A stretch of DNA of 64,000 bases from Mangrovibacterium diazotrophicum (GTDB taxonomy: Bacteria > Bacteroidota > Bacteroidia > Bacteroidales > Prolixibacteraceae). A program made the position numbers and the translations under genes. Where the stretch lies: positions 3,645,320 to 3,709,319 of the forward strand of contig NZ_RAPN01000001.1 of assembly GCF_003610535.1 (NCBI RefSeq), in the 5' to 3' direction. The notes below the pieces were generated by a model. The model saw only the letters and a list, made by a program, of their open reading frames with translations, did no database searches and was not told the origin of the DNA. Below are positions 3,301 to 22,839 of this stretch, piece by piece (positions within the stretch are counted from its first letter, which is position 1; each line of letters opens with the position of its first letter).

Positions 3301-3325
3301 ACAAATCTCCCAAAAGCAATAAGCA

Positions 3326-4147
3326 ATGAAAAACAAATTAATTATACCCTTTTTTATTTTCGGCAGTCTCTTCCTTTTTTCGTGTCAGGAAGAAAATGAG
3401 AGCGAGGAAACCGCAAACGACCCGATCGTAGAAGCGTACGTCTACGAAGGAAGTTCGAATATTGATGTGAAACTTTCTGAAATTATTCCATTTCAGGATC
3501 TGAACTCTGAAGATGAAACAATGATCTCAAACGCGGAAGTATCGGTCTCAATAAACGGAAATGAATTTCTGTTAGACGAAAAAAGCGACATGCCTGGACA
3601 CTATACCTATGATGGTTCCGACATGTCAATACAAGCAGGACAAATCATTTCTTTTTATCTGAGATACAATGAAACAGATATAACGGCCAAAACCGAGGTT
3701 CCTGAAAAGCCTCAGGATGTTCAGCTTTCTGAATCCGTAAAGTACATCGAAGAAATTAATAACTTGATAGACCTTGCAAATATAGGCGAATCGTCTGTCG
3801 AGGTTTCCTGGTCTAATCCGGACAACTCTTATTACTATCTCACGGTAAAAAACATTGAAACTGATCCGGAAACAATTGATCCAAACAATTACATTCCTGA
3901 TGTTGATGGCATCAATACGCCTCCCCTACCCACCGATTTCTCTATTTTGTGGCTCAATCAATTAAACGACTATGGCACCTACGAGATCATCGTTTACAAG
4001 GTAAATTCTGAATATGTGGACCTATACAACTCTCGTCAACAGAACTCACAGACCTTAAACGAGCCATTGACCAATATTGAAAACGGGTATGGCATATTTA
4101 CGGCTTTTGCGGCAGACACTGTTTATTTGGAAATACTAAAACCATAG
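3326..4147 (+). CDS. DUF4249-type lipoprotein, partner of the upstream TonB receptor
   Basis: A 273-residue protein with a lipoprotein signal peptide (hydrophobic run, then LFLFSC; the Cys near residue 20 would be lipidated). The mature part begins with an acidic, low-complexity linker rich in Glu and continues as a probable beta-sandwich (YVYEGSSNIDVKLSEIIPFQ). This layout and the position directly behind a TonB-dependent receptor match DUF4249 proteins. Their function is unproven; a surface-exposed accessory of the receptor is the usual inference. It is co-transcribed with the receptor (25-bp gap), and a strong hairpin terminator follows 69 bp after the stop codon. Confidence 0.72.
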   Translation: MKNKLIIPFFIFGSLFLFSCQEENESEETANDPIVEAYVYEGSSNIDVKLSEIIPFQDLNSEDETMISNAEVSVSINGNEFLLDEKSDMPGHYTYDGSDMSIQAGQIISFYLRYNETDITAKTEVPEKPQDVQLSESVKYIEEINNLIDLANIGESSVEVSWSNPDNSYYYLTVKNIETDPETIDPNNYIPDVDGINTPPLPTDFSILWLNQLNDYGTYEIIVYKVNSEYVDLYNSRQQNSQTLNEPLTNIENGYGIFTAFAADTVYLEILKP

Positions 4148-4215: not shown

Positions 4216-4258
4216 AAAAAGAGAGTGGAGATCCAGTGATTTTCACTCTCTTTTTTTT
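4216..4258 (+). terminator. Rho-independent terminator after the receptor/DUF4249 pair
   Basis: A 12-bp stem pairs 4216-4227 (AAAAAGAGAGTG) with 4244-4255 (CACTCTCTTTTT) around a 16-nt loop and runs into eight T residues. It closes the two-gene unit before the sigma-factor gene. Confidence 0.85.
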
Positions 4259-4431: not shown

Positions 4432-4998
4432 ATGAAGAAATTAACAGACGAAGCGATACTAAATCTTTTGAGGCGAGACAAGTCTCAGGGGATTCGCTGT
4501 CTATTCGATAAGTATTATGTCTCCTTAGTGGTTTTCGGCGAACAAATCGTGAAAGATCGCAACCAGAGTGAAGACCTGGTGCAGGAATTCTTTGTTCGTT
4601 TGTGGACGCACGACTACCTGGACAATGTTCAGGCTACCGACCTCCGTTCCTACTTGTTTCGAAGTATCCGCAATTCATCCCTCAGCAGTCTCAAAAAAAA
4701 CGATTCCCTGAAAGAAGCAGTAGATCTTTTGGACATTCAGTTACCGGAAGACAACAATTTTTCAACGAATGACAGAAAAGTTGAATTAGCGCTTCGTGAA
4801 ATAGAAAAATTGCCCGAAAGAACACGAAAAGCTATCCAATTAGTCATGCTGGAACGTAAAAAGTATCAGGAAGTTGCCGACGAAATGGAAATCTCTGTCA
4901 ATACCGTAAAGTATCTACTGAAAGAAGGGACGAAAAAGCTTCGCGATCGCCTTCGAGACTCCGAAATGGAATTATTTTTACTTTTTTTCAGAAAGTGA
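4432..4998 (+). CDS. ECF-type RNA polymerase sigma-70 factor
   Basis: A 188-residue sigma factor. Region 2 is seen around residues 20-55 (FDKYYVSLVVFGEQIVKDRN, then EDLVQEFFVRLW). Region 4 is near the C-terminus, with the helix-turn-helix YQEVADEMEISVNTVKYLL and a basic helix KKLRDRLRD. There is no region 3, as expected of the extracytoplasmic-function class. I prefer ATG 4432 over the in-frame ATG at 4387: AAGGGGGAG sits just before it, the family usually begins near here, and a possible promoter box lies between the two. A FecR-type anti-sigma gene follows 48 bp later and an STN-bearing SusC after that. By analogy with FecI/FecR/FecA it should be released when the receptor binds ligand, and then transcribe the SusC locus. 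Confidence 0.88.
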   Translation: MKKLTDEAILNLLRRDKSQGIRCLFDKYYVSLVVFGEQIVKDRNQSEDLVQEFFVRLWTHDYLDNVQATDLRSYLFRSIRNSSLSSLKKNDSLKEAVDLLDIQLPEDNNFSTNDRKVELALREIEKLPERTRKAIQLVMLERKKYQEVADEMEISVNTVKYLLKEGTKKLRDRLRDSEMELFLLFFRK

Positions 4999-5046
4999 CC
5001 TACCCGTTTTGTCTTTTTGGTAGTCTTTAGAGAAAAGACGATCAGA

Positions 5047-6222
5047 ATGACAAATGTACCCGAGCATATTTTCGACCTCATCATGCAGGATTTTGCAGAA
5101 GGATTGCCTCCTGGAAAATCTGTCGTGTTAAAAGAATGGTTGGAAGAATCTGCTGAAAATAGAATCGCTTGGAATGAACTATTCGATACCTGGCAAGCCG
5201 GAGCTATTGCGGGCTTTCCAGCCAATCAAACCAACGAGGCGTGGTCGAAGATTTCGAACAGTGCCAACACCACCAAAACAAGAAGGCTGAATTGGAAAGC
5301 TCTTTCCGCATCGGTTGCGGTGGCAGCTTCCATCGCTATAATTGTAGGTCTTTGGTTTGCCTTGGGTGGTCGCAACAGCAGCGACGCGCAATGGGCAAAA
5401 CTGAATGAAATGGCAACAATTCCCAGTTCCGTGAAATTGGTTTTGAATTCAGGTGAAGAGGTTTTACTGCAGGATACCGTGGATCATGAGTTGGAATTGG
5501 ACGGAAAACTGGTACACACCAAAAAAGGAGAGGTGTCGTATGTCGATTCTGCAGAGCAAGCTAAAACAGCCATTCCTGTATACCACGAACTGGTGGTACC
5601 TCGGGGAGGAGACTATGTGCTGACCCTTGCCGATGGAACGGTGGTCACAATCAACTCGGATTCTCATTTAAAATTCCCGGTTCTGTTTACCGGCGAAACA
5701 CGCGAGGTTTGGTTAACCGGAGAAGCTTATTTCGAAGTGGAGCACAATCCGGCGAAGCCTTTCATTGTGCATGCGAGTGGCGCTGCCACGCGGGTGTTGG
5801 GAACAGAGTTTAATGTGAAAGCTTACAGAGATGATTCGTTTGAAGAGGTAACCTTGGTAAATGGATCGGTAGAATACAGCGCCGGAGAGAACCAAGTTCG
5901 GTTGAAGCCCGGCTACCAGGTGCATGCCGAGCTGAATTCAACTGATATTTTGAAAGCCCAGCCGGTTGACACGTATATGTATACAGCCTGGAAAGACGGA
6001 ACAATGTATTTCGACGACATCAGTTTGGAGGAATTGATGATCCGCCTGAATCGCTGGTATGATTTTGATTACGAGTTTAAAGATGATGCGTTGAAAGAGC
6101 GCTTGTTCACCGGTGGTGTGAAGAAGAATGACGATTTGCAGAAAATCTTCAGTCTGATTGGAATGGTGAATGATGTATCGTTCTCAATCAAGGATAACCG
6201 AATATTGATGGATAAAAAATAA
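5047..6222 (+). CDS. FecR-family anti-sigma factor
   Basis: A 391-residue inner-membrane anti-sigma factor. The cytoplasmic N-terminus of about 80 residues (EHIFDLIMQDFAEGLP) would hold the sigma factor. One membrane helix follows near residues 82-105 (SASVAVAASIAIIVGLWFAL). The periplasmic FecR domain begins VVPRGGDYVLTLADGT and contains EVWLTGEAYFEVEHNPAKPF. A DUF4974-like domain (YFDDISLEELMIRLNRWYDF) ends the protein; it resembles an STN fold and is thought to meet the receptor's STN domain. The start is ATG 5047; the frame extends to a TTG at 5017, which lacks support. It stands between the sigma factor and SusC, the normal signalling order. Confidence 0.88.
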   Translation: MTNVPEHIFDLIMQDFAEGLPPGKSVVLKEWLEESAENRIAWNELFDTWQAGAIAGFPANQTNEAWSKISNSANTTKTRRLNWKALSASVAVAASIAIIVGLWFALGGRNSSDAQWAKLNEMATIPSSVKLVLNSGEEVLLQDTVDHELELDGKLVHTKKGEVSYVDSAEQAKTAIPVYHELVVPRGGDYVLTLADGTVVTINSDSHLKFPVLFTGETREVWLTGEAYFEVEHNPAKPFIVHASGAATRVLGTEFNVKAYRDDSFEEVTLVNGSVEYSAGENQVRLKPGYQVHAELNSTDILKAQPVDTYMYTAWKDGTMYFDDISLEELMIRLNRWYDFDYEFKDDALKERLFTGGVKKNDDLQKIFSLIGMVNDVSFSIKDNRILMDKK

Positions 6223-6254
6223 AGCAGCCGGGTAGTTGCGATACCTGACTGCTT
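6222..6254 (+). other. Hairpin between fecR and susC
   Basis: AAGCAG at 6222-6227 pairs with CTGCTT at 6249-6254, and GGTA at 6230-6234 pairs with TACC at 6242-6245 inside it, giving an interrupted stem around a short loop. There is no T-run behind it, so it is more likely an attenuator or mRNA-processing structure than a plain terminator. It overlaps the last base of the fecR stop codon. Confidence 0.5.
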
Positions 6255-6261
6255 CGAGTTC

Positions 6262-6287
6262 ACTAATAGTGGGAATATTCCCTTAGT
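6262..6287 (+). promoter_or_regulatory. Second inverted repeat in the susC leader
   Basis: GGGAATATTCCC at 6271-6282 is a perfect 12-bp palindrome, flanked by ACTAA (6262-6266) and TTAGT (6283-6287), which extend the symmetry. It lies 29 bp before the susC ATG. It could be an operator or part of a folded leader. No exact TAnnTTTG box is present in this gap, which fits transcription by the adjacent ECF sigma factor, though that is only inference. Confidence 0.45.
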
Positions 6288-6310
6288 TAAATTGTTTAAT
6301 CCTCAAATGT

Positions 6311-9300
6311 ATGAAAAAATTTCTATGGAGAAGTTATGTCCGACCCGATCGGTGGTTGAGTGGCAGGTTAACCATTCTCGCTTTGCTGACTTTTCTTTGT
6401 GTGAGTCATTCTTTTGCATTGACTTTGAAAGATTTGCAGAAAAAGATAACGGTTAATTTCACGGAGGCTCCTTTAAAAGAAGTCCTGAATGAAGTGCAGC
6501 GACAAAGTGGGATTATTATCATGTACAGCAGCGAAAAGCTGGACGTTTCAAAGAAAGTAACGGTTAACGTGAAGGACGCAGAAGTTCGGGATGTTCTGAC
6601 ACTCGTGTTGGTCGGATCGGGTTTGACCTTCGATGTGGTCGATAGTTACATCCTGATTAAGCCCAGTCCGGTGGAGGAAACCAGGCCCGAAGCCGGTGAA
6701 ATTCAGATTATCGGTCATGTGGGCGACGAAGATGGATTACCACTTCCCGGTGCGACGGTGATTGTGAAAGAAACCCGGGTTGGTGTAACGACCGACGGAA
6801 ACGGCTCTTTCGCCCTTAAAACCCGCCAAGGCGAGACCACGACTTTGCTTTTTTCGTTTGTCGGATTGAAGACGCAGGAAGTCGTGTACAACGGAGTCAA
6901 TCCAGTCAATATTCAATTGAAACGCGACGACAAAATTATCGGCGATGTGGTTGTTACCGGTTATCAAAACCTGGATAAACAGCGCGTTGCAGGAGCTGTG
7001 AGCAAAGTGGAACGCGATGACATGAACTTCAACACCATTAACTCGATAGAACAGGCTTTACAAGGGAAACTTCCTGGGGTTACCGTTCTGAATACTACCG
7101 GTGAAGTTGGAGTTCGCCAACGCACCCGTGTTCGAGGTACTTCAACTTTCATGGGAAACCAGGAACCAATCTGGGTCGTTGATGGAATTATTCAGGAAGA
7201 CCCGCTGCCATTCTCGACCCAAACATTGGATAGCGAAGGTGGAATTTCAGAAGACAATTTCGATTTCATCCGCAACTACGTGGGGAATTCTATTTCGTGG
7301 TTGAATCCGAATGATATCGATGATATTACGGTGTTGAAAGATGCATCGGCAACGGCTATTTATGGTGTGCGTGCGGCCAATGGCGTGATAGTAATTCGCA
7401 CCAAACAAGGTGAAGTTGGCCCATTGTCGGTTTCTTATTCACTCGGGTTGAATGTAGCTGAGCAAGTTACTTACGACAAATTGGAACTCATGAATTCGCG
7501 CGAACGAGTGGCTGTTTCCCGCGAGATTTTTGAACGCGGTTTGGTGGCCAGTTTTACCAATAACAACATTGGTTATGCCGGCGCGCTGCAACAATACCTG
7601 AACAAGGAACTTACTTACGACGAATTTAACGCACAGGTAGCGCGGATGGAATCGGTGAATACCGATTGGTTCAATATTCTGTTTCGCAATCCCTTCAGCC
7701 AGTCTCACCATGTAAGCCTGTCCGGAGGAAATCAGAAAATGCGGATTTATTCGTCCTTAGGATATACCAGCCAGAATGGTACGGCGATTGGAAACGACCA
7801 GAACACCTTGAATGCCAGTATCGGGTTCAACAGCCAGGTGAATGAAAAACTGAATGTTAGCTTTCGTTTAAGTGGTAGTAAATCAGAGACCAATGGGTTC
7901 AATGGCCTGAGTCCATACGAATATGCCAGTACGACAAATCGGGCCATTCCGGCCTACGACGAAGATGGCGAACTGTATTACTACGTGAAAGACAACGGAT
8001 TTCTGTTCAATTACATCAACGAACGGGATCAGTCGGGCAATACTAATACGAGTCAAAGTATCAACTCCAATCTGAATCTTCAGTATAACATTTTGCCGGA
8101 GTTGAAACTGAATGTATTGGGTAGTTATAACATCAGTTCTACAACGGGAGTATCCTATGCAACTGAACGTACGAATTCAATTACCGCTATTCGTGGCTAT
8201 GAATATGGAACCGTTAGCTCTACGGATGATGCTTATGCTCAATCTCGTTTACCCATTGGTGGATTGTACAACGAGGACGACAATAAATCTTCGAACTGGA
8301 ACTTCCGGTCGACGCTTTCATACGACAAAGTTTTTAATCAAAAACATGCGTTGACAACCATGATCGGTTTCGAAATGCAAAGTGCGAAGTACGATGGTTA
8401 TGCATCAACGGTATACGGTTATTTGCATGATCGCGGAAAGTCGTTTGCGAAAGTACCACCAACGATTACTTCTTATGGCTACTCGCTGGAGAATGGATTA
8501 TTGGATGAATTTGATTACACGGTAACTGATAAGCTGACCAACAATGTTGGTTATTACTTGACCTTAAATTACGCCTACGATGGTCGCTATGTGGCCAACT
8601 TCAGTGTGCGTGGTGACGCTTCGAACCGTTTCGGACAATATCCGAATGAAAAATTCAATCCCGTTTGGGCCGGAGGTGCACGTTGGAACGTCAATCGGGA
8701 AAAATGGATGCAGGATGTGCATTGGGTTTCTGGTTTAAGCTTGCGCGGAACGTATGGTTTCCAGCGAAACATGGCAACCGATTTTAGTCCAAGTTTGATC
8801 GTGCGAATCCCGAACACAACGGCAACATCTCAGCTTTACGACGCGAATACGGGAGACTATTTGCTGAACATCAGCAACCTTCCTTATGAAGATTTGCGCT
8901 GGGAAGAAACAACTTCGTACAACATTGGAGCCGATTTCAGCCTCTTCAACAATAAAGTTTATTTCTCGGGCGACTATTACCAAAAGAAAGGGCAGGACAT
9001 GATTACCCTGCTGAGTATTCCGGTAGAGTATGGAATGGAAACCATGCCGGTGAATGGTGGTAGCATGAAGAATAAGGGTTACGAGCTGACGCTTGGTTTT
9101 ACACCTGTTCGTACCGGCAATTTTACCTGGAACCTGAATTTGAGTACTTCGAAAAATAAGAATGAAGTGACCAAAGTGGGTACGCAAAATCCAACCTGGA
9201 AATCAGCAGCTCAAGGCTCTTTGTTTAAAGAAGGTTATGCTGTTTCCTCTTTTTGGGCCTTCAAATCAGATGGTATTGATCCGGAAACCGGCTATCCGAT

Positions 9301-9904
9301 TATCGACTTAACCGTTGCTGAAGGAGAGAATCCGGTCGACAACCCAACTTCTTACATGGAGTATGTCGGAAAATTGGATCCGGATTTCACAGGTTCGTTA
9401 GGGAACACCTTCCGCTATAAGCAACTTTCAATGGTCGCAAGCTTCTACCTGCAACTGGGAGGAAAGAAATTCCTGAGTCCAGCTTATGCGTCATCTGTTA
9501 TGCCAACAGAGTACGAAAACTTGTCGTCGGAATTGAACGACCGCTGGACACCAGAAAATACCAGTGCGACAATCCCCGGTTTACCTGATGCTTACATTGT
9601 TCAGAATCCGGTAACTCTCCCGGGAACAACCAATACGGGCGAGACACTCTACGAAATGTACAACTACAGTACCGACAGAGTTGTAGACGCTTCGAGCTTG
9701 CAGCTGTCGATGCTTACCTTGAATTACAATTTTGGCGATAATATCTGCAAAAAACTGAACTGTCGTTCTGTAACACTTGGTGTATCGGCCTCAAACGTAT
9801 TTACGATTGTGAGCAAAGACTTTCAGGGGCGTGATGCTGAAGTAGCCACAGGTAATCAACCTCGTACACGTTCCTATTCGCTTAATCTGAGTGTCAACTT
9901 TTAA
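6311..9904 (+). CDS. SusC/RagA-family TonB-linked outer-membrane transporter with STN domain
   Basis: A 1,197-residue transporter. Residues 1-36 hold a signal peptide ending SFALT. A secretin/TonB short N-terminal (STN) domain spans about 45-118 (KITVNFTEAPLKEVLNEVQR). A carboxypeptidase-D-like domain covers about 131-205 (GLPLPGATVIVKETRVGVTT). The TonB-box region is IIGDVVVTGYQ near 209-219, and the plug shows the SusC signature pattern VLKDASATAIYGVRAANGVI. The rest is barrel. SusC proteins import large oligomers together with a SusD lid. The STN domain, absent from the first receptor in this window, marks this one as a signal transducer to the FecR protein encoded upstream. Protease genes downstream suggest a peptide substrate, as for RagA, rather than a glycan; that is inference. 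Confidence 0.93.
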   Translation: MKKFLWRSYVRPDRWLSGRLTILALLTFLCVSHSFALTLKDLQKKITVNFTEAPLKEVLNEVQRQSGIIIMYSSEKLDVSKKVTVNVKDAEVRDVLTLVLVGSGLTFDVVDSYILIKPSPVEETRPEAGEIQIIGHVGDEDGLPLPGATVIVKETRVGVTTDGNGSFALKTRQGETTTLLFSFVGLKTQEVVYNGVNPVNIQLKRDDKIIGDVVVTGYQNLDKQRVAGAVSKVERDDMNFNTINSIEQALQGKLPGVTVLNTTGEVGVRQRTRVRGTSTFMGNQEPIWVVDGIIQEDPLPFSTQTLDSEGGISEDNFDFIRNYVGNSISWLNPNDIDDITVLKDASATAIYGVRAANGVIVIRTKQGEVGPLSVSYSLGLNVAEQVTYDKLELMNSRERVAVSREIFERGLVASFTNNNIGYAGALQQYLNKELTYDEFNAQVARMESVNTDWFNILFRNPFSQSHHVSLSGGNQKMRIYSSLGYTSQNGTAIGNDQNTLNASIGFNSQVNEKLNVSFRLSGSKSETNGFNGLSPYEYASTTNRAIPAYDEDGELYYYVKDNGFLFNYINERDQSGNTNTSQSINSNLNLQYNILPELKLNVLGSYNISSTTGVSYATERTNSITAIRGYEYGTVSSTDDAYAQSRLPIGGLYNEDDNKSSNWNFRSTLSYDKVFNQKHALTTMIGFEMQSAKYDGYASTVYGYLHDRGKSFAKVPPTITSYGYSLENGLLDEFDYTVTDKLTNNVGYYLTLNYAYDGRYVANFSVRGDASNRFGQYPNEKFNPVWAGGARWNVNREKWMQDVHWVSGLSLRGTYGFQRNMATDFSPSLIVRIPNTTATSQLYDANTGDYLLNISNLPYEDLRWEETTSYNIGADFSLFNNKVYFSGDYYQKKGQDMITLLSIPVEYGMETMPVNGGSMKNKGYELTLGFTPVRTGNFTWNLNLSTSKNKNEVTKVGTQNPTWKSAAQGSLFKEGYAVSSFWAFKSDGIDPETGYPIIDLTVAEGENPVDNPTSYMEYVGKLDPDFTGSLGNTFRYKQLSMVASFYLQLGGKKFLSPAYASSVMPTEYENLSSELNDRWTPENTSATIPGLPDAYIVQNPVTLPGTTNTGETLYEMYNYSTDRVVDASSLQLSMLTLNYNFGDNICKKLNCRSVTLGVSASNVFTIVSKDFQGRDAEVATGNQPRTRSYSLNLSVNF

Positions 9905-11397
9905 TGCAATTCAAAATGAAATTTCTAAAACCGACCATATATACGCTGGGGCTGTTGAGCATGGTGTTTTTGACCTCCTGCAGCAGCTTTCTGGAAGAAA
10001 CCAGCCAGGACGAATTGATTCCGTCGAGCCTGGAGGACCTGCAGTCCACCATGTATGCCGAAGCCTATCCGTATAATTTCAGTTCAGATATGTTTCTGAA
10101 CCTTTTAACGGATGAGCTGGTATGCCAGGGGTTAAACAACGATTATTACGTAACTCAATATTCCAACGGAACAGCCATGTTCCAGTTTGACAAGGCGATG
10201 TTTGATGGCGACTATGCAATCCCGTCAGATGCCAATTCCTGGAAGAATTACTACGAAAAAATAATGGGCTGTAACGTAGTGCTGGATTATCTGCCTTTTG
10301 TATCCGGCTCTGAATCGGAGAAGAATGCGGTAAAAGGGCAAGCTCAGTTCCTGAGAGGATTCTACTATTTGCGTCTGGCAATGATCTATTGTCAGCTGTA
10401 TAATGCTGAAGGCGTAAATCCAGAGCAGGCGTTGGGTGTTCCACTGGTATTGACCATGGATGTGACAGATGATTTTCCGGTGCGTGCCAGCCTGAAAGAT
10501 ACCTATGCACAAATTGAAAGTGATTTGACGGAGTCCATCGCACTTCTGCGTGATAATTACGATGCGCCCTCAGCACACCGGGTAAGCTACCTGGCCGCTG
10601 AAGCCATGTTGAGCCGCATGTATTTGTACATGGGCCGCGATGAAGATTGGCAAAAGGTGGTTGATTATTCAACTGATGTACTAGCTGAAAAACCGACCTT
10701 GACGTACTTGAGCTCATTCAGTGCCGCATTTCACAACAAAGGTATCTATGACCTGGATGTGAGCGAGGAACCAATTTGGGTTTATGGCGTGGCTACTACA
10801 GCCAACAACGATTATTTACCCACACAACTTCAGTGGGGCAGTGTACCTCCTTACACTGTATCGTCAGAATTGAGCACTTTGTATGACGCCAATGATTTGC
10901 GCCTGTCCTCGTATTTCTACAGCGTGAATTACAACGGTGTTGACTATAATTTGAGACCGAACAAAATAGGGATGTATCAATCAAATTACGGCGATTGGGG
11001 GATCCGAAATGCCGAGGTGTATCTGAATCGCGCTGAAGCTTATGCTCGCTTGTACAAGGCGGGTGGCAGCTCTGATAATTTAGCCAATGCGCTCGCAGAT
11101 TTGAATTACCTGCGCCAAACGCGTTATGCCACTGGTACGTATGAGGATGTTGACATGAATGATGCCGACGCATTACTGGCTTTTTGCCTGGAGGAGCGTC
11201 GCCGCGAGTTGTGTCTGGAAAACAGTTTGCGCTGGTTTGATATTAAGCGTCTGAGCTTGTCAGTAACGCATACTTACATGGACGCAGCCGGGGTTTCTTC
11301 GGACTATACGCTGGACTCGGGCGACCCGCTCTACGCGTTGCCTATTCCGTACGATGCGATTAACCGAAACTACAAGTTGGAGCAAAATCCACGCTAG
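9904..11397 (+). CDS. SusD/RagB-family surface lipoprotein
   Basis: A 497-residue protein with a lipoprotein signal peptide (LLSMVFLTSC, lipidated Cys near residue 26). SusD features include a TPR-like helical N-terminal half (QAQFLRGFYYLRLAMIYCQL) and the C-terminal pattern LAFCLEERRRELCLENSLRWFDIKRL. It should form the hinged lid over the SusC barrel and present substrate to it. Its ATG overlaps the susC stop by one base (TAATG), implying translational coupling; a second in-frame ATG at 9916 is the alternative start. The lid's binding residues cannot be read from sequence alone, so the ligand is unknown. Confidence 0.92.
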   Translation: MQFKMKFLKPTIYTLGLLSMVFLTSCSSFLEETSQDELIPSSLEDLQSTMYAEAYPYNFSSDMFLNLLTDELVCQGLNNDYYVTQYSNGTAMFQFDKAMFDGDYAIPSDANSWKNYYEKIMGCNVVLDYLPFVSGSESEKNAVKGQAQFLRGFYYLRLAMIYCQLYNAEGVNPEQALGVPLVLTMDVTDDFPVRASLKDTYAQIESDLTESIALLRDNYDAPSAHRVSYLAAEAMLSRMYLYMGRDEDWQKVVDYSTDVLAEKPTLTYLSSFSAAFHNKGIYDLDVSEEPIWVYGVATTANNDYLPTQLQWGSVPPYTVSSELSTLYDANDLRLSSYFYSVNYNGVDYNLRPNKIGMYQSNYGDWGIRNAEVYLNRAEAYARLYKAGGSSDNLANALADLNYLRQTRYATGTYEDVDMNDADALLAFCLEERRRELCLENSLRWFDIKRLSLSVTHTYMDAAGVSSDYTLDSGDPLYALPIPYDAINRNYKLEQNPR

Positions 11398-11429
11398 AGC
11401 ATGTTTTCAACCACAAAAAATGACGTAAA

Positions 11430-12386
11430 ATGAAAATTAAAAATCTATATACCATTCTTGCTGCGGGCTTGCTTTTGTTTTCAGCATGCGTTAAAGAAGA
11501 AGGCGAATTGGAACCTTCGGGCATAGAAGATGGTTACACGGTGCCTCAGGGAACCAACGATTTCGATGCAACCATTGTCGATTATTACAATCGATTTGGA
11601 TCATGTTTGTTGTATGAATTTACAGAGAAGGATGTTTACTGGACGCCATCGAAATGGCAAAACGGAACGCCGACTTCAGAAGATCAAGACGGAGTAACCG
11701 GGCTGTATGTTACGATGCCCGATCTGGACTATATAGCTCCGCAACTGGACTTGCTGGATAAAACCTGGTTTAGTTTGTACAACGACCAGTTTTTGAAGGA
11801 ATTTTTACCGGTTAAAATTATGCTTTGCGATACGGTAGCCTATTGTGATTACGACTGGTCAACCTGGCCGGCTACGATTGCACCAACACTCCAGTATGCC
11901 TATTACAATTACGACAACATTAGTGTTGGCTATGCCAATGAAGCTGTTTTAAACATGACTTCTTACGATACGCTTACTTTTGCCCGTGCCGTTAACCGCG
12001 CTTTTATCGAGAGTATGGCGGGTCGTGATAAGCTTGAGCCAACAACGGTGTTTGTTGCATCAACCAGTTATGCGAATGTTTCGACCTTGTATAACAATAC
12101 TGACATTTGGGGAGTGGGAGTTTTCCAGCCTTACTATCAGGCTTCTCCCGAGAATGACTGGCAGAACTTCGTTTTGATGATGGTCTTATATTCGGAGGAT
12201 TATTTAAATCGTGAGGTGAGTTACGTTAGCGAATGGGACTGGGAAGAAACAAGCTGGGAAGGCATCTTCACCAGCCAGAAAGATGTGAACGGAATGATGA
12301 AGAAGCGTTACGACATTGTTCGTAACTACTACATCGACAACTACGGAATCGATCTGCAAGAGATCGGTAATACAATCGGGCAGTAG
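11430..12386 (+). CDS. Lipoprotein of unknown function in the SusCD-protease locus
   Basis: A 318-residue protein with a clear lipobox (LLLFSAC, Cys near residue 20), so probably outer-membrane anchored like SusD. The mature part starts with an acidic linker and is rich in Tyr, Trp and Asp (YNRFGSCLLYEFTEKDVYW). Its general look recalls the putative zinc-binding metallopeptidase lipoproteins that often follow susD in Bacteroidota. However, no HExxH is present and the segment expected to hold it reads FARAVNRAFIESMAG, so I do not assign a peptidase. It lies 32 bp after susD in the same operon. A surface ligand-binding accessory of the SusCD pair is a reasonable guess. Confidence 0.6.
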   Translation: MKIKNLYTILAAGLLLFSACVKEEGELEPSGIEDGYTVPQGTNDFDATIVDYYNRFGSCLLYEFTEKDVYWTPSKWQNGTPTSEDQDGVTGLYVTMPDLDYIAPQLDLLDKTWFSLYNDQFLKEFLPVKIMLCDTVAYCDYDWSTWPATIAPTLQYAYYNYDNISVGYANEAVLNMTSYDTLTFARAVNRAFIESMAGRDKLEPTTVFVASTSYANVSTLYNNTDIWGVGVFQPYYQASPENDWQNFVLMMVLYSEDYLNREVSYVSEWDWEETSWEGIFTSQKDVNGMMKKRYDIVRNYYIDNYGIDLQEIGNTIGQ

Positions 12387-12426
12387 CCACTTGTCCTGAA
12401 ATTCAAAAGCAGAAATTAGATACAAT

Positions 12427-12454
12427 AGTTTCGGTGCCATCGGGCGCCGAAACT
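12427..12454 (+). other. Strong intra-operon hairpin before the metalloprotease gene
   Basis: AGTTTCGGTGCC (12427-12438) pairs over 12 positions, one of them G-T, with GGCGCCGAAACT (12443-12454) around the tetraloop ATCG. No T-run follows; the next ATG is 13 bp away. It is therefore unlikely to be a full terminator. Candidate roles are protection of the upstream SusCD transcript end, partial attenuation of the protease genes, or control of ribosome access at 12468. Confidence 0.6.
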
Positions 12455-12467
12455 TCATAAAATTACC

Positions 12468-14864
12468 ATGAAAAACACGTTTACACTTTGTTTTTTGATG
12501 TGGTTGGGGCTTTCATTTGCCCATGCTGAATCATCGGCAAAGGCTGATAGTTTGTTGAGCATTAGTGAATTTGTGACGAACGCAGCTATAGCCGATAGTG
12601 GGTTTGTCAACTACTATCAAATCAAGGAACGACATTATTTAGAAATACCGGACCGGGTTTTGGGCAGAGATATTCTGTCGACCATTACCATTCTGAAAGG
12701 AGCTCAGCAGAATACCCGTCGGATGGATAAGCGCTTTGGCTACGGAGGAGACTCCATGAACAACAACCTGGTTCGTTTTACCAGGCATGAAAATACGCTT
12801 GATTTGGTGAGCCCGGATATCAAATACACCGAGAGTGGAGATGCCTTATTTGCTGATTTCTATAAAAGCCTGTTGGAACCGATCATTCATTCGTTTGAAA
12901 TAACAGCTCGCTCCGATAGTTCAAGCTTAATCGATATTACCGATTATTACGAGGGAGACTCTGAGTTATTTGGCTTAGCAGGCGCGCAAGTATCGCTGGA
13001 TCTGGGGGGCTATTTGCAGCAGGAATCCTATTCTGTGCAGGTGAAAAGTTTTCCGGAGAATATCAATTTCAGGTCCATCCGTTGCTACGCTGCTGCGAAC
13101 CCCAAACAAAGCACCTACGGAAAGTTGCAATGGGAAGTTGGTGCATCCTGGTTCTTACTACCTGAAAAACCCTTGAAGATTCGTTTGGCCGACAAGCGTG
13201 TTGGCTATTTTACCTCATCAATGCGTGGGCAGGTTCACAATGTTGATGAAAATGAAATTTTCCCGATCGTGAATCGCTGGCGCATGGAGCCAAAGCCGGA
13301 AGACGTTCAAAAGTATTTGGACGGAGAATTAGTTGAGCCTGCGAAACCGATCATCTTTTACATTGACAAAACAATGCCGGAATACCTGGTTGAAGGTATT
13401 CGCGAGGCAATTGAAGCCTGGCAAAAACCTTTTGAAAAATTGGGTTTTAAGAATGCCATATTGGCTCGGGTGGAACCTAGCGAAGCTGAAGATCCCGACT
13501 TCTCGGTTGAGGATGCACGCTACAGCTACATTTCTTATAAAGCATCACCCATCCCCAATGCCTACGGACCATCGATTGTCGACCCAAGATCGGGCGAAAT
13601 TATTTGTTCGCATGTGGCTGTTTTCCACTCGGTGATGGATTTAATCCAGATGTGGTATTTCGCCATGTGCAGTCCTTCTGATCCGGCCGCCCGAATTTAC
13701 CCCTTGGAGCATAATGTCATGTCCAAGCTGGTGAATACCGTGGTGAAGCACGAGGTTGGCCACACGCTGGGGCTTCGGCACAACTTTATGGGAAGTACTT
13801 ACTACCCGGTTGACAGCCTGCGCAGCAACAGCTTTATTGCTCACAATGGTTTGGGAACGTCTATTATGGACTATGAACGTTTCAACTATGTGGCGCAACC
13901 CGAAGACAAAGTAACACAGGAAAACCTGTTTCCACGAATTGGTGTGTACGACGATTTTGCTATCGACTGGGGTTACCGCTATTTCCCCGATTCGTTGACT
14001 GCCGTGCAGGAGTCAGTCCTGCTAAAACAATGGGTAGCCGAAGAACTGGAAAGAGGGGGGCGTGACTATGTGGAAGAGTCAACAAAATCAGATCCAAGAG
14101 TACAGGCTGAGGACTGCGGCGATGACGTGGTTTATGCCAGCGAACTGGGGATGAAAAACCTGCAATACATTATGAAGCATTTGCAGGAATGGACCAATGA
14201 ACAGGGCACGGAAGACTATGTTTTGCTCAAGCGCCGTTTCTATTATGTCCTCCATCAATACGAAGCTTATGTGGGTCACGTCATGCAGTTGATTGGTGGT
14301 TACTACACCGAGGATTGCAGTTGTGGGGCAACAAACAATCATAGCTACCATGCGGTATCGGCGGAAACACAGCAAAAAGCCATCGATTTTCTAACGACCT
14401 ATTATTTGCAGGAGCCGGAGTGGTTGCTTAATGCCTCTTTTATTGACAAAGTTGATTTCGATTTTGATGATCGGATCCAGAATCCGGCTTTCATGCGGAT
14501 GGGGCAGCTCATGGTCAGCAATATGAACTATTCCATCAGCGAGTCTATCGATCCAACTTCGGCAACTTACGCCTATTTCTTACAAAAATTGTATGGAGGG
14601 CTGTTTCCCGAAGGAAAGCAAACACAGGCAGTTTCTGCGTACAGCCGAATGATGCAGCGCACTTTCCTGACTCAATTAACCATTAATCTGGAGAATCAGG
14701 CTGTGATCCCATATAATGTTTTGCAGGGAATGAAACAGACCATCGACAGCTTGAAAGCTTACGCTGAGAAAGGCGCCAGCTCTGATGATGACCTGACCAG
14801 CGTGCACTACCGCTCAATTTTGAATTTTATTAAAGTCTGGGAAACCGGCTCACAAAAGCTATAG
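12468..14864 (+). CDS. Secreted zinc-dependent metalloprotease (DUF5117/DUF4953 type)
   Basis: A 798-residue protein with a signal peptide ending near residue 20 (LSFAHAES). The N-terminal half resembles DUF5117 (HYLEIPDRVLGRDILSTITI). The catalytic part carries the metzincin motif HEVGHTLGLRH at residues 428-438: His428, His432 and His438 as zinc ligands and Glu429 as general base. The later segment SIMDY fits the Met-turn. The C-terminal part is helical and matches the DUF4953 layout. Export is expected, and the product should act in the periplasm or at the surface. It follows a strong hairpin and precedes a non-catalytic paralogue by three bases. The natural substrate is unknown; a SusCD setting suggests it trims imported or captured polypeptides. 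Confidence 0.85.
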   Translation: MKNTFTLCFLMWLGLSFAHAESSAKADSLLSISEFVTNAAIADSGFVNYYQIKERHYLEIPDRVLGRDILSTITILKGAQQNTRRMDKRFGYGGDSMNNNLVRFTRHENTLDLVSPDIKYTESGDALFADFYKSLLEPIIHSFEITARSDSSSLIDITDYYEGDSELFGLAGAQVSLDLGGYLQQESYSVQVKSFPENINFRSIRCYAAANPKQSTYGKLQWEVGASWFLLPEKPLKIRLADKRVGYFTSSMRGQVHNVDENEIFPIVNRWRMEPKPEDVQKYLDGELVEPAKPIIFYIDKTMPEYLVEGIREAIEAWQKPFEKLGFKNAILARVEPSEAEDPDFSVEDARYSYISYKASPIPNAYGPSIVDPRSGEIICSHVAVFHSVMDLIQMWYFAMCSPSDPAARIYPLEHNVMSKLVNTVVKHEVGHTLGLRHNFMGSTYYPVDSLRSNSFIAHNGLGTSIMDYERFNYVAQPEDKVTQENLFPRIGVYDDFAIDWGYRYFPDSLTAVQESVLLKQWVAEELERGGRDYVEESTKSDPRVQAEDCGDDVVYASELGMKNLQYIMKHLQEWTNEQGTEDYVLLKRRFYYVLHQYEAYVGHVMQLIGGYYTEDCSCGATNNHSYHAVSAETQQKAIDFLTTYYLQEPEWLLNASFIDKVDFDFDDRIQNPAFMRMGQLMVSNMNYSISESIDPTSATYAYFLQKLYGGLFPEGKQTQAVSAYSRMMQRTFLTQLTINLENQAVIPYNVLQGMKQTIDSLKAYAEKGASSDDDLTSVHYRSILNFIKVWETGSQKL

Positions 14865-14867
14865 GCT

Positions 14868-17216
14868 ATGAATCGTTCAGATAAAAACAAGCACATGAAA
14901 ATATTAATTGCACTTTCCATTTTAGTCGGGCTGACCTTTGCCGGGTACCACGCCGAAGCTCAGGCCAAGCAGGAGCCAAAGACCTTCGATCAGTTTTACG
15001 ACGCCAAAACAATGACTGTCGAGAAAGCTTATTTCCTTGTTTATCAGTCGGGCGACAACTACTACCTGGAAATTCCGGAAGAGGCTTTTGGGAAAGACAT
15101 CCTCATTACAACCCAGGTTGTTGGTGGTTATTCAAACTATGTTTCTCCCCAGTCGGGACTTATCCAGATCAAAAAAGGGCGTAATAACAGCCTCGATCTG
15201 TTTCAAAATAAATCAACGACTTTTGCAGCCGACTCTGCTGATTTCTGTATGACTGCAGCCATTCAGAATTCGGGATTGGTACCGGTATATCGTAATTTCC
15301 CGATCGTAGCAGAAGGGAAGGAAGGCAAATCAGTTATTATTGATTTGACACAAGAGTTGAATAGTCCGCAGGGAATTTTCAATGTAAGCGATATGAGCTC
15401 GTTAAGCAGTCCCGATCCTTCCCGTTCACGGGTTGAGGGCTTTAGATCGATCGAAAATGGCGTTGTATTCTCGGCCCTGCGCACACAAAGTCAGTTTTTA
15501 CCAAACTCAGAGAGTGGCGAACGCAGCAACCAAATCTCCACCTTTCGGATTGAAATGCTCATTCAACGGATACCGGATCATTCGGTTGCGATGAAAAAGG
15601 ATCACCCGGCTTATGGATTCAACAGTGTTGAGCGCGTTGAATACGACACCCGGAATTACCGGGCAAACATTGAAAACTATATCAAGCGTTGGAATTTAGC
15701 GGCTTCAACTGAGAATCAAAAGTTGCAAGCGAAGGGCATTGCCGTTGAACCGGAACTGCCGATTGAGGTCTGGATTGATCCGATCACACCGGCACCTTTT
15801 GTGGAATCGGTAAAGTCTGCCCTGAAGCAGTGGGACGCAGCTTTTGAAAAAGCAGGATGGAAGAATGTTTTTCGCTATACGAATGAAGGTACCCTGAGCT
15901 ACAAAAAACTCATGTTTTCATGGGGGCATGCATACAGCGGAATTGTCAAATCTGTGATTGATGACCCGGTTAGCGGTGAAATTCTGGCAGCGCGGATCAG
16001 TCTTTTGGATGAATCGGCTAAGGACATGCAGATCAATTATTTTTTGTGGTGCGGCCTGACTGATGAGCGTTTGGAGACGGAATTGCAATCCTTGGAACTT
16101 CGGGAGCAAATCTTGACTTCTCATTTGGCTGGTGTCATTGGCTCGGTGTTGGGATTAAAGGAAAATTATCCCGCTTGCACGGCTTTCACACCAAAACAAG
16201 TTCGCAATACCGAGTGGTTAAAGCAATGGGGACCAACAGCCACAGTAGTTGGTGCAAAAATGGTGGATTACCTCGTTCAGCCGGAAGATAAAATCGCGCC
16301 GGAACTGCTGTTGCCCAAGGTGTCGTTGTACGATGTTGAAGCGATAGCTTATGCTTATGGCAATCGCACTGAATCGCCTTCGATGAAAGCGTGTTACTAT
16401 GCCGAAAATGATAAACTGGATCCTATGTCGCAACCCTTGTTCTTATCTAATGATCTCTTGGAAGCAAGCGAGTTGGGATTAAATAACCTGGAACGCATCT
16501 ATCCGCAAATACCTGAACGGGTAGCTAATTGGCCGGCAGCACAAAGCGGCCCCGAAATGGTTTCAAAGTTGGCGGGTCAAGCCTTTTCGATTTACCAGTT
16601 CTTTATCAACCAAATGGCGATGTATGTTGGTGGTCGCACCAAGCGCACCGTTATTCGTGGCGAAAATGAAACCCCTTTGGTCTATGTGCCGAAAGCCAAG
16701 CAGGAAGCTGCCTTGGCAGCGCTGGAACAATATGTGTTCAGCGGAGCACCTGCCTGGTTCTCGAATGAAGAGATCAACCGCGTATTTCCGGTCGATCAAA
16801 GCAAATTCGCGGTAGACATGGCCAATGGCGTCATGCGGAATCTGTTGCGTAAAGAGGTGATCAACTCGTTGGCCGAGGCCGAGAGTGCTTATGGTGACAC
16901 GGTTTTCACTTGTTCTGATCTGTTTGCCTATTTTGATCGCGTCATCTTTGCCAATTACAATCCGGCTGTTTCTCAAACACAGGTGCAGTTAAGTATTCAG
17001 TTGCAGTTTGCAGTCAACCTCATTCAGGCGGCTAGCGAAAACAATATCACCGGCGGATTATCCGATTCTTCGGCTATGCTTAACTTGTACCTGATTCATG
17101 TGCGTGATGAGATTCAGAAACTACAGGATCATAAGAAGACTGATGCTCGCGTAAAGGAGAATTGTTCGTTAATTCTTTTGAAAATGAATCGCGAGTTTTT
17201 CAATAAAACGGTTTAA
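14868..17216 (+). CDS. Pseudo-metalloprotease paralogue with a destroyed zinc site
   Basis: A 782-residue homologue of the preceding protease, sharing its architecture: exported N-terminus, YYLEIPEEAFGKDILI region, and the downstream block MVDYLVQPEDKIAPELLLPKV, which matches MDYERFNYVAQPEDKVTQEN in its neighbour. The segment aligned with HEVGHTLGLRH reads GVIGSVLGLKE (residues 422-432). All three zinc-binding His positions (Gly422, Ser426, Glu432) and the catalytic Glu (Val423) are replaced, while LGL and the Met-turn methionine remain. It should therefore fold but not hydrolyse peptide bonds. ATG 14868 is possible, but the signal peptide looks best from ATG 14895 (MKILIALSILVGLTFAG). The intact, frameshift-free reading frame argues for a kept function, such as a partner, binder or inhibitor. 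Confidence 0.82.
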   Translation: MNRSDKNKHMKILIALSILVGLTFAGYHAEAQAKQEPKTFDQFYDAKTMTVEKAYFLVYQSGDNYYLEIPEEAFGKDILITTQVVGGYSNYVSPQSGLIQIKKGRNNSLDLFQNKSTTFAADSADFCMTAAIQNSGLVPVYRNFPIVAEGKEGKSVIIDLTQELNSPQGIFNVSDMSSLSSPDPSRSRVEGFRSIENGVVFSALRTQSQFLPNSESGERSNQISTFRIEMLIQRIPDHSVAMKKDHPAYGFNSVERVEYDTRNYRANIENYIKRWNLAASTENQKLQAKGIAVEPELPIEVWIDPITPAPFVESVKSALKQWDAAFEKAGWKNVFRYTNEGTLSYKKLMFSWGHAYSGIVKSVIDDPVSGEILAARISLLDESAKDMQINYFLWCGLTDERLETELQSLELREQILTSHLAGVIGSVLGLKENYPACTAFTPKQVRNTEWLKQWGPTATVVGAKMVDYLVQPEDKIAPELLLPKVSLYDVEAIAYAYGNRTESPSMKACYYAENDKLDPMSQPLFLSNDLLEASELGLNNLERIYPQIPERVANWPAAQSGPEMVSKLAGQAFSIYQFFINQMAMYVGGRTKRTVIRGENETPLVYVPKAKQEAALAALEQYVFSGAPAWFSNEEINRVFPVDQSKFAVDMANGVMRNLLRKEVINSLAEAESAYGDTVFTCSDLFAYFDRVIFANYNPAVSQTQVQLSIQLQFAVNLIQAASENNITGGLSDSSAMLNLYLIHVRDEIQKLQDHKKTDARVKENCSLILLKMNREFFNKTV

Positions 17217-17230
17217 AAGCTAATCAAACC

Positions 17231-20200
17231 ATGAATGATTTTTTCATTACTAAAATAGTCTTGGTTCTCCTGCTGGCGCTCTTCGGAGTGCAGGTAGTTG
17301 AGGCGCAAAACCGGGAAGTCAATTTTCAGCACAGCACGCTGGATGAGGCTTTGCAGCAGGCGCGCGAACAAGATAAGCTGATTTTTATCGATTGCTATAC
17401 GAGTTGGTGTGGCCCCTGTAAGATGATGGCCAAAACAGTATTTACCCTCGATTCGGTGGCGGATTTTGTCAACCAGTCTTTTATTCCGCTGAAGCTGGAT
17501 ATGGAAGTGGGTGAAGGACCTGAGGTTGGGAAACGATATGCCGTTCAGGCTTACCCTACTTATTTGTTCCTGAATGGCAAAGGCGAACTCATCTACAAGT
17601 TTGTAGGCGGTATGAAAGGTGATCGCTTTATCGACAGTGCCCGGGTGGCGCTTGAGCCTGCCAACCGCTTTCGCCTGATGAATGAGCGATATGCCAGTGG
17701 AAATTACGATGACGCCTTTATGCGTGATTTCATTCGCCTGAAGTTTAAAGTGAGCGAGTTTGAAGAAGCGGTTAGCCTGGCCGATCAGTATTTTAATAAA
17801 CTGTCGCCTGATGAGCGCGCTTTACCTGAAAACTGGATGTTGTTTGGCGAAAGCTCTTTCAGCAGCCGCATTGCCTATTCCAATAGTCGAAATTTGAATT
17901 ACCTGGTTGAACATTGGGCCTACTTTAAAGGGCAGGTAGACGATTCGCTGCTTTACGGACGTATTTCCGACAACTTTGTTCAGATTACCGCCAACACATT
18001 CAATGGTCGTTATTTCCGCGATAATGGTCGCAACTGTGCTGACTTCGATGCCTTTAAAATACGAATCAAACGGGTAGAAGGATTAGTCGATAGACCCGCC
18101 TTGCTGGTGTTGATGGATGTGGCCAAAGCCGTATGTGTCAGCGATACTGCATTGGCTTTGCAATTGCTCACAGACCATGTCTCCGATTTCAGTGCGGCCA
18201 ATCAAAAAGCCTTATTCGATTTTTTCGGCTTTTATTTGAATGCAGATCAAATCCGAACCCATGTAGTTTACGAGTTGATGCGGCGAATTGTCCTGTGCAA
18301 TCGCAATCCAAACCTGGTAGGTTTGATGAAATATTACATGAATGACGCTGACCCGAATGTGGAACGCTATGACGTGCCGAACCTGGAAAACAAGATCGGT
18401 TCCACGACCATAATTCCATTCTTCCATCCCGAAAAGCAGGTTTGTTACTTTGGCTGGACGGAGCCCGGAGGCAAAAGCGAATTTAAAAGTTATGAAGCGG
18501 GGAAGGGTACTCGTTCAATCTATAACAAAATGATCATTGACTCGCTACTTCTCGCTGAGGGTATCGACACTTCCTGGGTGTCACTTTATCCTTCATTTGA
18601 TGAGCAGGGCTTGGTCGCCAGTTTCACCGCCGGGGGGCAACGGTTTGCTTATGATTCTGAACGGAAATCCATTGAGAAAATTCCGGAAAAGCAATTTCCT
18701 CCAGTCCTCTGGGGCTTGTCACCTGATAAAAAGTTTGAACTGTTTGAGCAAAATTACAATCTCTTCTCCAGAAACCTGGGCGATTCGAGTATCGTTCAGC
18801 TCACCAATGACGGTGAAGCTAAAGCGGCCTACCAGCTTTCTGAAGTAAAATGGATTTCAGACTCTAAATTCGTCATATCAAAGAATGACACCCGCGGAGT
18901 TCGGCAAATGAGTGTAATCAACTCAACTACTCAGCCTTACCCAACTACCATCAATTACGATTTTCAACTGCCTGGGGATCAAACGATCGATCGTACGGAA
19001 GTTTATATCGGCGATGTGGCTAAGGGCGAAATTCAGCAGGTTGATGTGGAACGTTGGGAAGGGCAGCAGCTTTACCCCGTTCGAGCTGATGAGGTCAATG
19101 ATCGCTTCTATTTTATGCGGATAAAACGAACACGGAAAGAAATTGAACTTTGCTACATCGACCGCAGCGGGGAGTGCAAGGGATTGGTTCATGAAGTTTG
19201 CGAGCCGGTTTTCAACGAGATGAAGTTTGCCTGCAAAATCCTGAATAAGGGAGAGGATATCCTGTTTTGGTCGGATCGGACCGGATGGGGCCATTATTAT
19301 CGCTACGATAAAGATGGAAAGTTAAAAAACAGCCTGGGTACCGGAAATTGGACCGCCGGACGAATTGCCGGATTTGATCAAAAAACACAGCAGGTTTTCT
19401 ATTCTTGCTATGAGCGGGAGAAAGGCATCAATCCGAATTATAAGTTGCTATATCGCGTTGACCTGGATGGTAAAAATGCCAAACTGCTGACGCCCGAGAA
19501 TGCCGATCACAATGTGTTTGTAAATATCTCTGGCAATATGCTCATCGACAACTATTCGCGTATTGATACGGCTCCGAGAATTATAGCCCGAACTTGCTCC
19601 GGCAATCTGTTGGATACCGTTGCAACACCTGACATTCAACCGCTTTTAGACTACGGTTGGAAATTCCCCGAGCAGTTTACGGTAAAGGCTGCTGATGGAA
19701 AGACCGATTTATATGGAATCATATGGAAGCCCTTTGATTTTGACCCGAATGAAAAATACCCGGTTGTGTCGCAGGTTTATCCAGGCCCATTCACCGAAAC
19801 GGTGTGGACTAATTTTACCGTGCTGGATCGGTATAACAACACAGCTCTGGCACAGCGTGGAGTCATCGTGGTTTGTATGGGGCATCGGGGATCAGCTCCA
19901 CACCGGGGCAAGGCGTATTCTTCCTACGGGCATGGAAATTTACGCGATTACCCGATAGCCGATGATAAATACGGACTGGAGCAATTAGCTCGTCGCTACA
20001 ACTTTATTGATTCAACCCGCGTGGGGATTGTTGGGCATTCCGGAGGTGCTTTAATGTCGGTTGTAGCGATGTGTACCTATCCCGATTTTTATAAAGTAGC
20101 TGTGGCGTCGTCCGGTAACTACGATAACTACATCTACCACCGGAACTGGGGCGAATATTACCAGGGAATAGGTGAGGATAACAGCTTCTCGGTAAAAACT

Positions 20201-20446
20201 GCCATGGAGCTTGCTCTAAATTTAAAAGGTAAGCTGTTGCTGGCCACTGGCGAATCGGATATCAATGTGAATCCGGCAAACACCTATCGAATGGTGGATG
20301 CGCTGATTAAAGCGGAAAAAGATTTTGACTTGCTGGTGTTGCCCGGGCAAGGGCACCATTTTGAAGGCCCCTATAAAACGTATTTTGAAAATCGGAAACG
20401 TGATTACTTTACGAAATACCTGATTAATCGACATTCGGGTAATTAA
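17231..20446 (+). CDS. Thioredoxin-like domain fused to an S9 (DPP-IV-like) serine peptidase
   Basis: A 1,071-residue exported protein. Residues 1-26 form a signal peptide (QVVEAQ). A thioredoxin fold follows, with the active site WCGPC at 59-63 (Cys60 and Cys63) and a cis-Pro-like YPTYLFL further on. After a helical linker, roughly residues 400-830 resemble the beta-propeller of DPP-IV peptidases. The alpha/beta-hydrolase domain closes the chain: nucleophile Ser937 in GHSGG, Asp1010 in GESDINV and His1042 or His1043 in GQGHHFEG. The predicted activity is exo- or oligopeptidase action on short peptides, with disulfide reduction or exchange by the N-terminal domain. It is the last gene of the locus, 14 bp behind the pseudoprotease, and is followed by a terminator. 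Confidence 0.85.
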   Translation: MNDFFITKIVLVLLLALFGVQVVEAQNREVNFQHSTLDEALQQAREQDKLIFIDCYTSWCGPCKMMAKTVFTLDSVADFVNQSFIPLKLDMEVGEGPEVGKRYAVQAYPTYLFLNGKGELIYKFVGGMKGDRFIDSARVALEPANRFRLMNERYASGNYDDAFMRDFIRLKFKVSEFEEAVSLADQYFNKLSPDERALPENWMLFGESSFSSRIAYSNSRNLNYLVEHWAYFKGQVDDSLLYGRISDNFVQITANTFNGRYFRDNGRNCADFDAFKIRIKRVEGLVDRPALLVLMDVAKAVCVSDTALALQLLTDHVSDFSAANQKALFDFFGFYLNADQIRTHVVYELMRRIVLCNRNPNLVGLMKYYMNDADPNVERYDVPNLENKIGSTTIIPFFHPEKQVCYFGWTEPGGKSEFKSYEAGKGTRSIYNKMIIDSLLLAEGIDTSWVSLYPSFDEQGLVASFTAGGQRFAYDSERKSIEKIPEKQFPPVLWGLSPDKKFELFEQNYNLFSRNLGDSSIVQLTNDGEAKAAYQLSEVKWISDSKFVISKNDTRGVRQMSVINSTTQPYPTTINYDFQLPGDQTIDRTEVYIGDVAKGEIQQVDVERWEGQQLYPVRADEVNDRFYFMRIKRTRKEIELCYIDRSGECKGLVHEVCEPVFNEMKFACKILNKGEDILFWSDRTGWGHYYRYDKDGKLKNSLGTGNWTAGRIAGFDQKTQQVFYSCYEREKGINPNYKLLYRVDLDGKNAKLLTPENADHNVFVNISGNMLIDNYSRIDTAPRIIARTCSGNLLDTVATPDIQPLLDYGWKFPEQFTVKAADGKTDLYGIIWKPFDFDPNEKYPVVSQVYPGPFTETVWTNFTVLDRYNNTALAQRGVIVVCMGHRGSAPHRGKAYSSYGHGNLRDYPIADDKYGLEQLARRYNFIDSTRVGIVGHSGGALMSVVAMCTYPDFYKVAVASSGNYDNYIYHRNWGEYYQGIGEDNSFSVKTAMELALNLKGKLLLATGESDINVNPANTYRMVDALIKAEKDFDLLVLPGQGHHFEGPYKTYFENRKRDYFTKYLINRHSGN

Positions 20447-20540: not shown

Positions 20541-20586
20541 AAAAAATAAGCGCGCAGATCATTTGGTCTGTGCGCTTATTTTTCGT
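20541..20586. terminator. Bidirectional terminator between convergent genes
   Basis: A 14-bp stem (AATAAGCGCGCAGA against TCTGTGCGCTTATT, one G-T pair) is flanked by an A-run on the left and a T-run on the right. It can therefore stop transcription from both the peptidase gene and the minus-strand DUF4861 gene. Confidence 0.85.
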
Positions 20587-22215: not shown

Positions 22216-22254
22216 CAGTCCCGATTATTGTCCGTACTTGCAGTTCTTATAATT

Positions 22255-22837: not shown

Positions 22838-22839
22838 CC

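Follow-up and report, generated by a model that had tools for sequence, protein, structure and literature searches.

A 64,000-nucleotide stretch of the Mangrovibacterium diazotrophicum genome (RefSeq assembly GCF_003610535.1, contig NZ_RAPN01000001.1, positions 3,645,320 to 3,709,319 of the forward strand; hereafter the window, with coordinates counted from its first letter) carries, at 4432–20446, eight co-oriented open reading frames: a sigma factor, FecR, susC, susD, a lipoprotein gene, a metalloprotease gene (mp1), its motif-less paralogue (pmp2), and a thioredoxin-peptidase fusion gene (trxS9). The cassette is a conserved unit of patchy distribution. We lean, at somewhat better than even chances, towards reading it as a SusCD importer of oligopeptides that is induced through its sigma factor and FecR and brings its own periplasmic reductive proteolysis; peptide import is suggested by the presence of peptidases together with the absence of carbohydrate-active enzymes (CAZymes). 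In the mechanism we propose, an outside ligand would be bound by SusC–SusD and the surface lipoprotein, a putative dead Mx1-type metallopeptidase serving as a peptide-binding accessory, and TonB-driven import would bring the peptide into the periplasm while the STN domain of SusC would signal via FecR to the sigma factor. Periplasmic mp1 would then make endoproteolytic cuts, working with pmp2, and Trx-S9 would reduce disulfides and shorten the resulting fragments at their N-termini in the manner of a dipeptidyl peptidase 4 (DPP4)-type enzyme.

Open reading frame analysis with Pfam and TIGR profile searches recovered all eight genes, on the plus strand, with the domains given to them in an initial annotation of this DNA. 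The putative extracytoplasmic function (ECF) sigma factor (4432–4998, with an alternative start at 4387) matches Sigma70_r2 and r4_2 and scores 111 bits against TIGR02985, below the cut-off of 126, and the FecR-type anti-sigma factor (5017–6222) matches FecR (57.9 bits) and FecR_C (59.7 bits). The SusC/RagA TonB-dependent transporter (6311–9904) has an N-terminal STN signaling domain followed by CarbopepD_reg_2 and Plug domains and scores 665 bits against TIGR04056 (cut-off 368); adjacent to it lies the SusD/RagB lid lipoprotein (9904–11397; SusD-like_3 90.6 bits, SusD_RagB 74.4 bits). The two genes thus qualify as a SusCD importer, and the receptor STN domain with adjoining FecR and ECF sigma genes qualifies the system as a TonB-dependent transducer. 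The genes are packed as in an operon, with a 1-base overlap of susC and susD and gaps of 3 and 14 bases that separate mp1 from pmp2 and pmp2 from trxS9. A Pfam scan (E up to 0.1) gave no CAZyme match for any of the eight, as had been claimed, and the cassette lacks the CAZyme within the locus that marks a glycan polysaccharide utilization locus.

The gene after susD (11430–12386) encodes a putative Peptidase_Mx1-fold lipoprotein that scores 35.0 bits against Peptidase_Mx1 (PF15890; cut-off 25.6) and 20.7 bits against TIGR04549 (cut-off 75). The three peptidase-type proteins counted initially all hold, but because the lipoprotein matches Peptidase_Mx1 the count is four; it appears to be a second dead metallopeptidase that the earlier count overlooked. 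Neither the window's protein nor any of the other lipoproteins examined from this position after SusD, 24 in all, has HExxH. Acidic residues directly follow its lipid cysteine, and it is probably surface-exposed. In contrast, the N-termini of mp1, pmp2, and Trx-S9 are of the signal-peptidase-I type without a lipobox, and none of the three has a Pfam match to a type IX secretion system tail (E up to 0.1); these enzymes are therefore probably periplasmic, leaving SusC–SusD and the lipoprotein as the probable surface part. The idea of a surface system in which the enzymes digest polypeptides outside the cell was dropped for these reasons. Of the initial interpretation, the co-occurring genes, the active/dead protease pair, and the peptidase with a CxxC motif stand, while polypeptides, possibly cysteine-rich ones, are its predicted substrate.

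The same eight genes occur in the same order in seven loci, the window included, and an eighth, in Bacteroidetes bacterium GWF2_40_14, shows seven of them, the sigma gene falling beyond the end of the stretch fetched; the order is thus kept across eight loci of three lineages, and this identity of arrangement in the seven full loci argues that it is more than chance. The predicted recurrence of the neighborhood in Bacteroidota relatives is borne out. The full cassette is found in one other genome of the same genus (53–68% protein identity), in a genome of a second family (32–56%), and in four more genomes of that family (G922, G924, and G926, of one genus, and G929), with sigma and FecR upstream in all six fully read cassettes other than the window's. 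Matches to pmp2 of about 1000 bits or more turned up in two of the 140 genomes from the window's family and in five of the 56 from the second family; among sampled genomes, 393 from the order yielded two, and 395 from the phylum yielded the window's own alone. Two contig scans for relatives returned none and four, respectively, and as to mobile carriage, three plasmid and three phage records held met-zincins that were only 22–24% identical. As a side observation, the DUF4953 met-zincins are strikingly expanded in G922–G929, eight genomes from two genera of the gut-type second family, each with 10 to 54 of them; there are two each in G104 and G426, three in the window's genome, and none in two same-genus genomes that lack the cassette.

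The last gene (17231–20446) encodes Trx-S9, a fusion of Thioredoxin_7, DPPIV_N, and Peptidase_S9 domains. Its peptidase part matches the S9 dipeptidyl peptidases (DPPIV_N 115 bits, S9 109 bits), with GHSGG at residue 935 and the Asp and His conserved, and the Ser/Asp/His triad is complete in all seven orthologues; its thioredoxin part carries CGPC at residues 60–63, and CGPC, CKPC, or CPPC is present in all seven. The proposed disulfide-handling peptidase is in this respect supported by the motifs. Among solved structures, those nearest in sequence are DPP4-type enzymes for the S9 part (PDB 2d5l, listed as a putative dipeptidyl aminopeptidase IV) and a putative disulfide isomerase for the thioredoxin part (2kuc, 117 bits). 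Among the matches listed for the 393 order genomes, for each of which no more than two candidates were scored, only those of the window and G426 cover the thioredoxin part. In seven related loci (L115–L121; pmp2 is broken in L117), thioredoxin and S9 are separate neighboring genes downstream of the metalloproteases, and the separate thioredoxin of L116 is 43% identical to the thioredoxin part of Trx-S9 over 167 residues. Three of these loci (L115, L119, and L121) have a gene of 645–654 amino acids followed by a TlpA-like gene of 178–181 amino acids; in L115, the one such pair scanned, these contain DsbD_N and AhpC-TSA domains. Judged by gene order, the thioredoxin appears to belong to the same job as the cassette peptidases. 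The two DsbD_TM matches in the window's genome mark proteins that could supply it with electrons.

Comparison of two close relatives suggests how the parts of the cassette are grouped. Between G924 and G926, FecR, SusC residues 1–280, mp1, pmp2, and Trx-S9 are 97–99% identical in protein sequence (synonymous differences, pS, 0.08–0.12), whereas the remainder of SusC, together with SusD and the lipoprotein, is only 67–82% identical (pS 0.67–0.70). This sharp block (5679–11692 of L111 versus 5019–11049 of L112) has flanks about 97% identical, and within it the proteins of G924 share more identity with those of G922 than with those of G926, opposite to the relationship elsewhere. The simplest reading would be a past exchange that began inside the SusC plug, stopped where the lipoprotein gene ends, and left the periplasmic signaling domain and the enzymes in place; such an exchange ties the lipoprotein to SusCD and sets it apart from the enzymes. 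The pattern resembles allele switching of an outer-membrane receptor. Divergence confined to the outer receptor block is also what would be expected if ligands change fast, as they might if the importer took up foreign inhibitory or signaling peptides (disulfide-bonded antimicrobial peptides, bacteriocins, or protease inhibitors) for destruction, in defense more than nutrition; sigma/FecR control and the fusion of a thiol-reducing domain to a peptidase would fit as well. We nonetheless consider a defensive role unlikely, as the cassette occurs in bacteria from the environment as well as from the gut, which show no hint of an antagonist in common, and the peptide-nutrient importer RagAB also has several alleles (PMC11817032).

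The sigma/FecR/STN layout is also typical of ferric-siderophore receptors, and the partner proteins have metallopeptidase folds, so that the cargo might instead be a metal or cofactor carried on a peptide or protein, metallophore-like, with peptidases freeing it and sigma/FecR sensing metal limitation. To this we give little weight. The cassette contains no metal-uptake gene, and none was recognized among 20 scanned neighbor proteins of the nearest SusC relatives. Nor does sigma/FecR point to metals: of 20 control loci, taken evenly from 56 further SusC loci scored in the window's genome, 13 have FecR upstream, and glycoside hydrolases (GH) are common among the neighbors of these controls.

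These controls also bear on glycans. A search of 198 sampled order genomes, with three candidates scored per genome, placed the eight SusC loci nearest to the cassette, outside it, at 33–38% identity (E up to 1e-140). Thioredoxin or TlpA genes accompany six of the eight, a met-zincin accompanies one (L158), and one is unreadable (L159); no CAZyme was found among their 20 scanned neighbors. Within that scan the nearest relatives do not sit in glycoside-hydrolase loci, an arrangement that would have counted against a peptide system. In a FastTree phylogeny of 61 SusC proteins (among the clade rows, L117 is broken, L159 unreadable, and L071 cut), 20 of the 21 thioredoxin-linked rows fall into one clade of 26, and all 21 control rows lie outside it. 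None of the 20 control loci has thioredoxin, TlpA, a met-zincin, or S9 in its downstream run, while their neighbors (51 proteins scanned) include GH92, GH88, GH30, GH43, GH127, GH97, GH31, and the polysaccharide lyase PL8, among the 25 of 79 families listed. It is accordingly very improbable that the cassette serves a glycan or glycopeptide with glycosidases encoded at another place and with its peptidases deproteining the glycan, even though SusCD pairs are best known for glycans and a rhamnogalacturonan lyase gene lies nearby in the window (25185–27320). Among the eight nearest, L157 is a same-clade SusCD locus of the window's own genome (C1:1623000–1642900), and it encodes a pair of M16 peptidases, each with HxxEH, as well as three CGPC thioredoxin proteins in a row.

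The two metalloprotease genes share the domain order DUF5118-DUF5117-DUF4953. The predicted endopeptidase mp1 (12468–14864) scores 306 bits against DUF4953 (PF16313) and has an intact zinc motif, HEVGHTLGLRH, from residue 428, with HExxHxxGxxH kept in the orthologues read. Its neighbor pmp2 (14868–17216) is a clear member of the family (143 bits, cut-off 24.2), but its zinc ligands and catalytic Glu are gone, with GVIGSVLGLKE in their place; the proposed endoprotease with a non-catalytic partner therefore agrees with the motifs. All 18 readable pairs combine an intact mp1 with a dead pmp2, whereas the motif is intact in 22 of 22 family members that have no partner in the stretch fetched. In a midpoint-rooted quick tree of 82 proteins, the 20 dead copies of this lineage form one clade, sister to 21 partner rows, which indicates one duplication and one loss of catalysis in the cassette lineage. 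Distances among mp1 and among pmp2 proteins are closely correlated over 18 loci (Mantel r 0.948; 0 of 2000 permutations as high), dN/dS between G924 and G926 is 0.16 for pmp2 and 0.08 for mp1, and pmp2 is full length (757–782 amino acids) in eight cassettes. The most likely role of pmp2 would be that of a partner subunit or substrate-holding module. Further active/dead DUF4953 tandem pairs were seen in L137 (9209–14517), where gene order is reversed, and in L138 (8399–13609), with no SusC or SusD recognized in the stretch; both seem to have lost catalysis independently, though their long branches leave the placement unsure. Active/dead met-zincin pairs thus seem to have had more than one origin, and this speaks for the dead copy acting as a partner. 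That pmp2 and the lipoprotein are instead functionless genes in decay, leaving SusCD, mp1, and Trx-S9 as the system, is hardly credible, because the lost motifs that favor it are outweighed by a dead clade with deep splits, the motif counts, co-divergence, and dN/dS, the apparent two further origins, and the persistence of the 24 motif-less lipoproteins, and decay of pmp2 was dropped.

Several observations weigh against our reading of the cassette as a peptide importer with its own proteolysis. Common ancestry of the loci would produce co-divergence of mp1 and pmp2 as well, the protease activity of mp1 is predicted from its motif, and a structure-sequence search found no solved structure of a DUF4953 relative. 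The link between the SusC clade and thioredoxin is neither exclusive nor obligatory: thioredoxin is absent in L122, L123, and L158 within the clade and present at L063 outside it. Intact met-zincins stand beside SusC outside the clade (L129, L130, L147, and L150–L154), and the active/dead pair stands beside a different SusC type in L124, L125, L135, and L136; the parts are not tightly bound to one another. Similarity to solved structures does not separate peptide from glycan transporters: the best match of the window SusC is 8ypu (376 bits), and its likeness to 8aa4 (204 bits), the levan SusC, is about as great as that to RagA (192 bits). Finally, the proposed localization of the enzymes comes from N-termini read by eye.

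The flanks of the cassette look unrelated to it. Upstream (877–4147) lies a separate receptor pair, a TonB-dependent receptor followed by a DUF4249 protein, and downstream (20599–21888) a convergent DUF4861 gene (339 bits), with ribosomal protein genes, recognized by eye, beyond it. Terminator-like inverted repeats, to which no strand is assigned, fall between the DUF4249 and sigma genes (4216–4255; 18-nt arms, 89% complementary, 4 nt apart) and between trxS9 and the DUF4861 gene (20542–20583; 20-nt arms, 90% complementary, 2 nt apart). The Bacteroides-type promoter consensus has 3 matches in the 64 kb, against 3.6 expected, and none within the cassette. Genes resembling rpsI, rpsB, and tsf were also noticed by eye near both the window cassette (22253–25032) and the variant cassette L118 (17622–19784); their arrangement differs, and either coincidence or a shared insertion site may explain them.

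Most SusCD systems are interpreted as importers of glycans, and here a SusC group, with members in the gut-type family too, is tied to thioredoxins and metallopeptidases, not glycosidases. The cassette suggests a way, open to testing, in which Bacteroidota could handle peptides and disulfides, and gives the DUF4953/5117/5118 family a context. A broader idea, possible though on balance doubtful, is that the whole SusC clade performs reductive peptide utilization, in which a pseudo-Mx1 surface peptide receptor, import, and thioredoxin/TlpA-driven reduction and proteolysis would open disulfide-rich peptides that are closed to other peptidases; here the protease would be an obligate active/dead heterodimer, and strains would shift to new targets by exchanging the receptor block.

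By titles and abstract openings, with most paywalled journals outside its scope, a literature search found nothing on the cassette, the met-zincin pseudoprotease pair, or the thioredoxin-linked SusC clade, and nothing on DUF4953/DUF5117/DUF5118/PF16313, Mx1/PF15890, the TIGR04549 product name, or 8YPT/8YPU. The component families are known. Active and inactive M16 peptidases form heterodimers, for example in the mitochondrial processing peptidase, and the likeness lies in retaining an active zinc peptidase alongside an inactive paralogue as its partner; the cassette pair, a putative complex, belongs to another family, the DUF4953 met-zincins. DPP4-type enzymes share with Trx-S9 the DPPIV_N propeller and an S9 domain with Ser, Asp, and His, to which the cassette protein adds an N-terminal thioredoxin. 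The import-associated zinc metallohydrolase lipoproteins (TIGR04549/PF15890; 4l7a, from Bacteroides caccae) differ from the cassette lipoprotein, which has no HExxH. In the levan and dextran SusCD utilisomes of B. thetaiotaomicron, further surface lipoproteins sit on the lip of the transporter (PMC7618045); the cassette likewise has a SusCD pair with an extra, probably surface-exposed lipoprotein, but this appears to be a dead metallopeptidase rather than a glycan-binding protein or glycosidase, and the enzymes are peptidases. The closest known kind is RagAB of Porphyromonas gingivalis, in which a SusC barrel and SusD lid serve peptides, as predicted for the cassette, and for which several alleles and a proposed horizontal transfer are reported (PMC11817032). 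The similarity of the cassette SusC to RagA is moderate (192 bits), and, unlike RagAB, the cassette encodes in line its sigma/FecR/STN control, a putative dead Mx1 lipoprotein, the met-zincin/pseudo-met-zincin pair, and Trx-S9.

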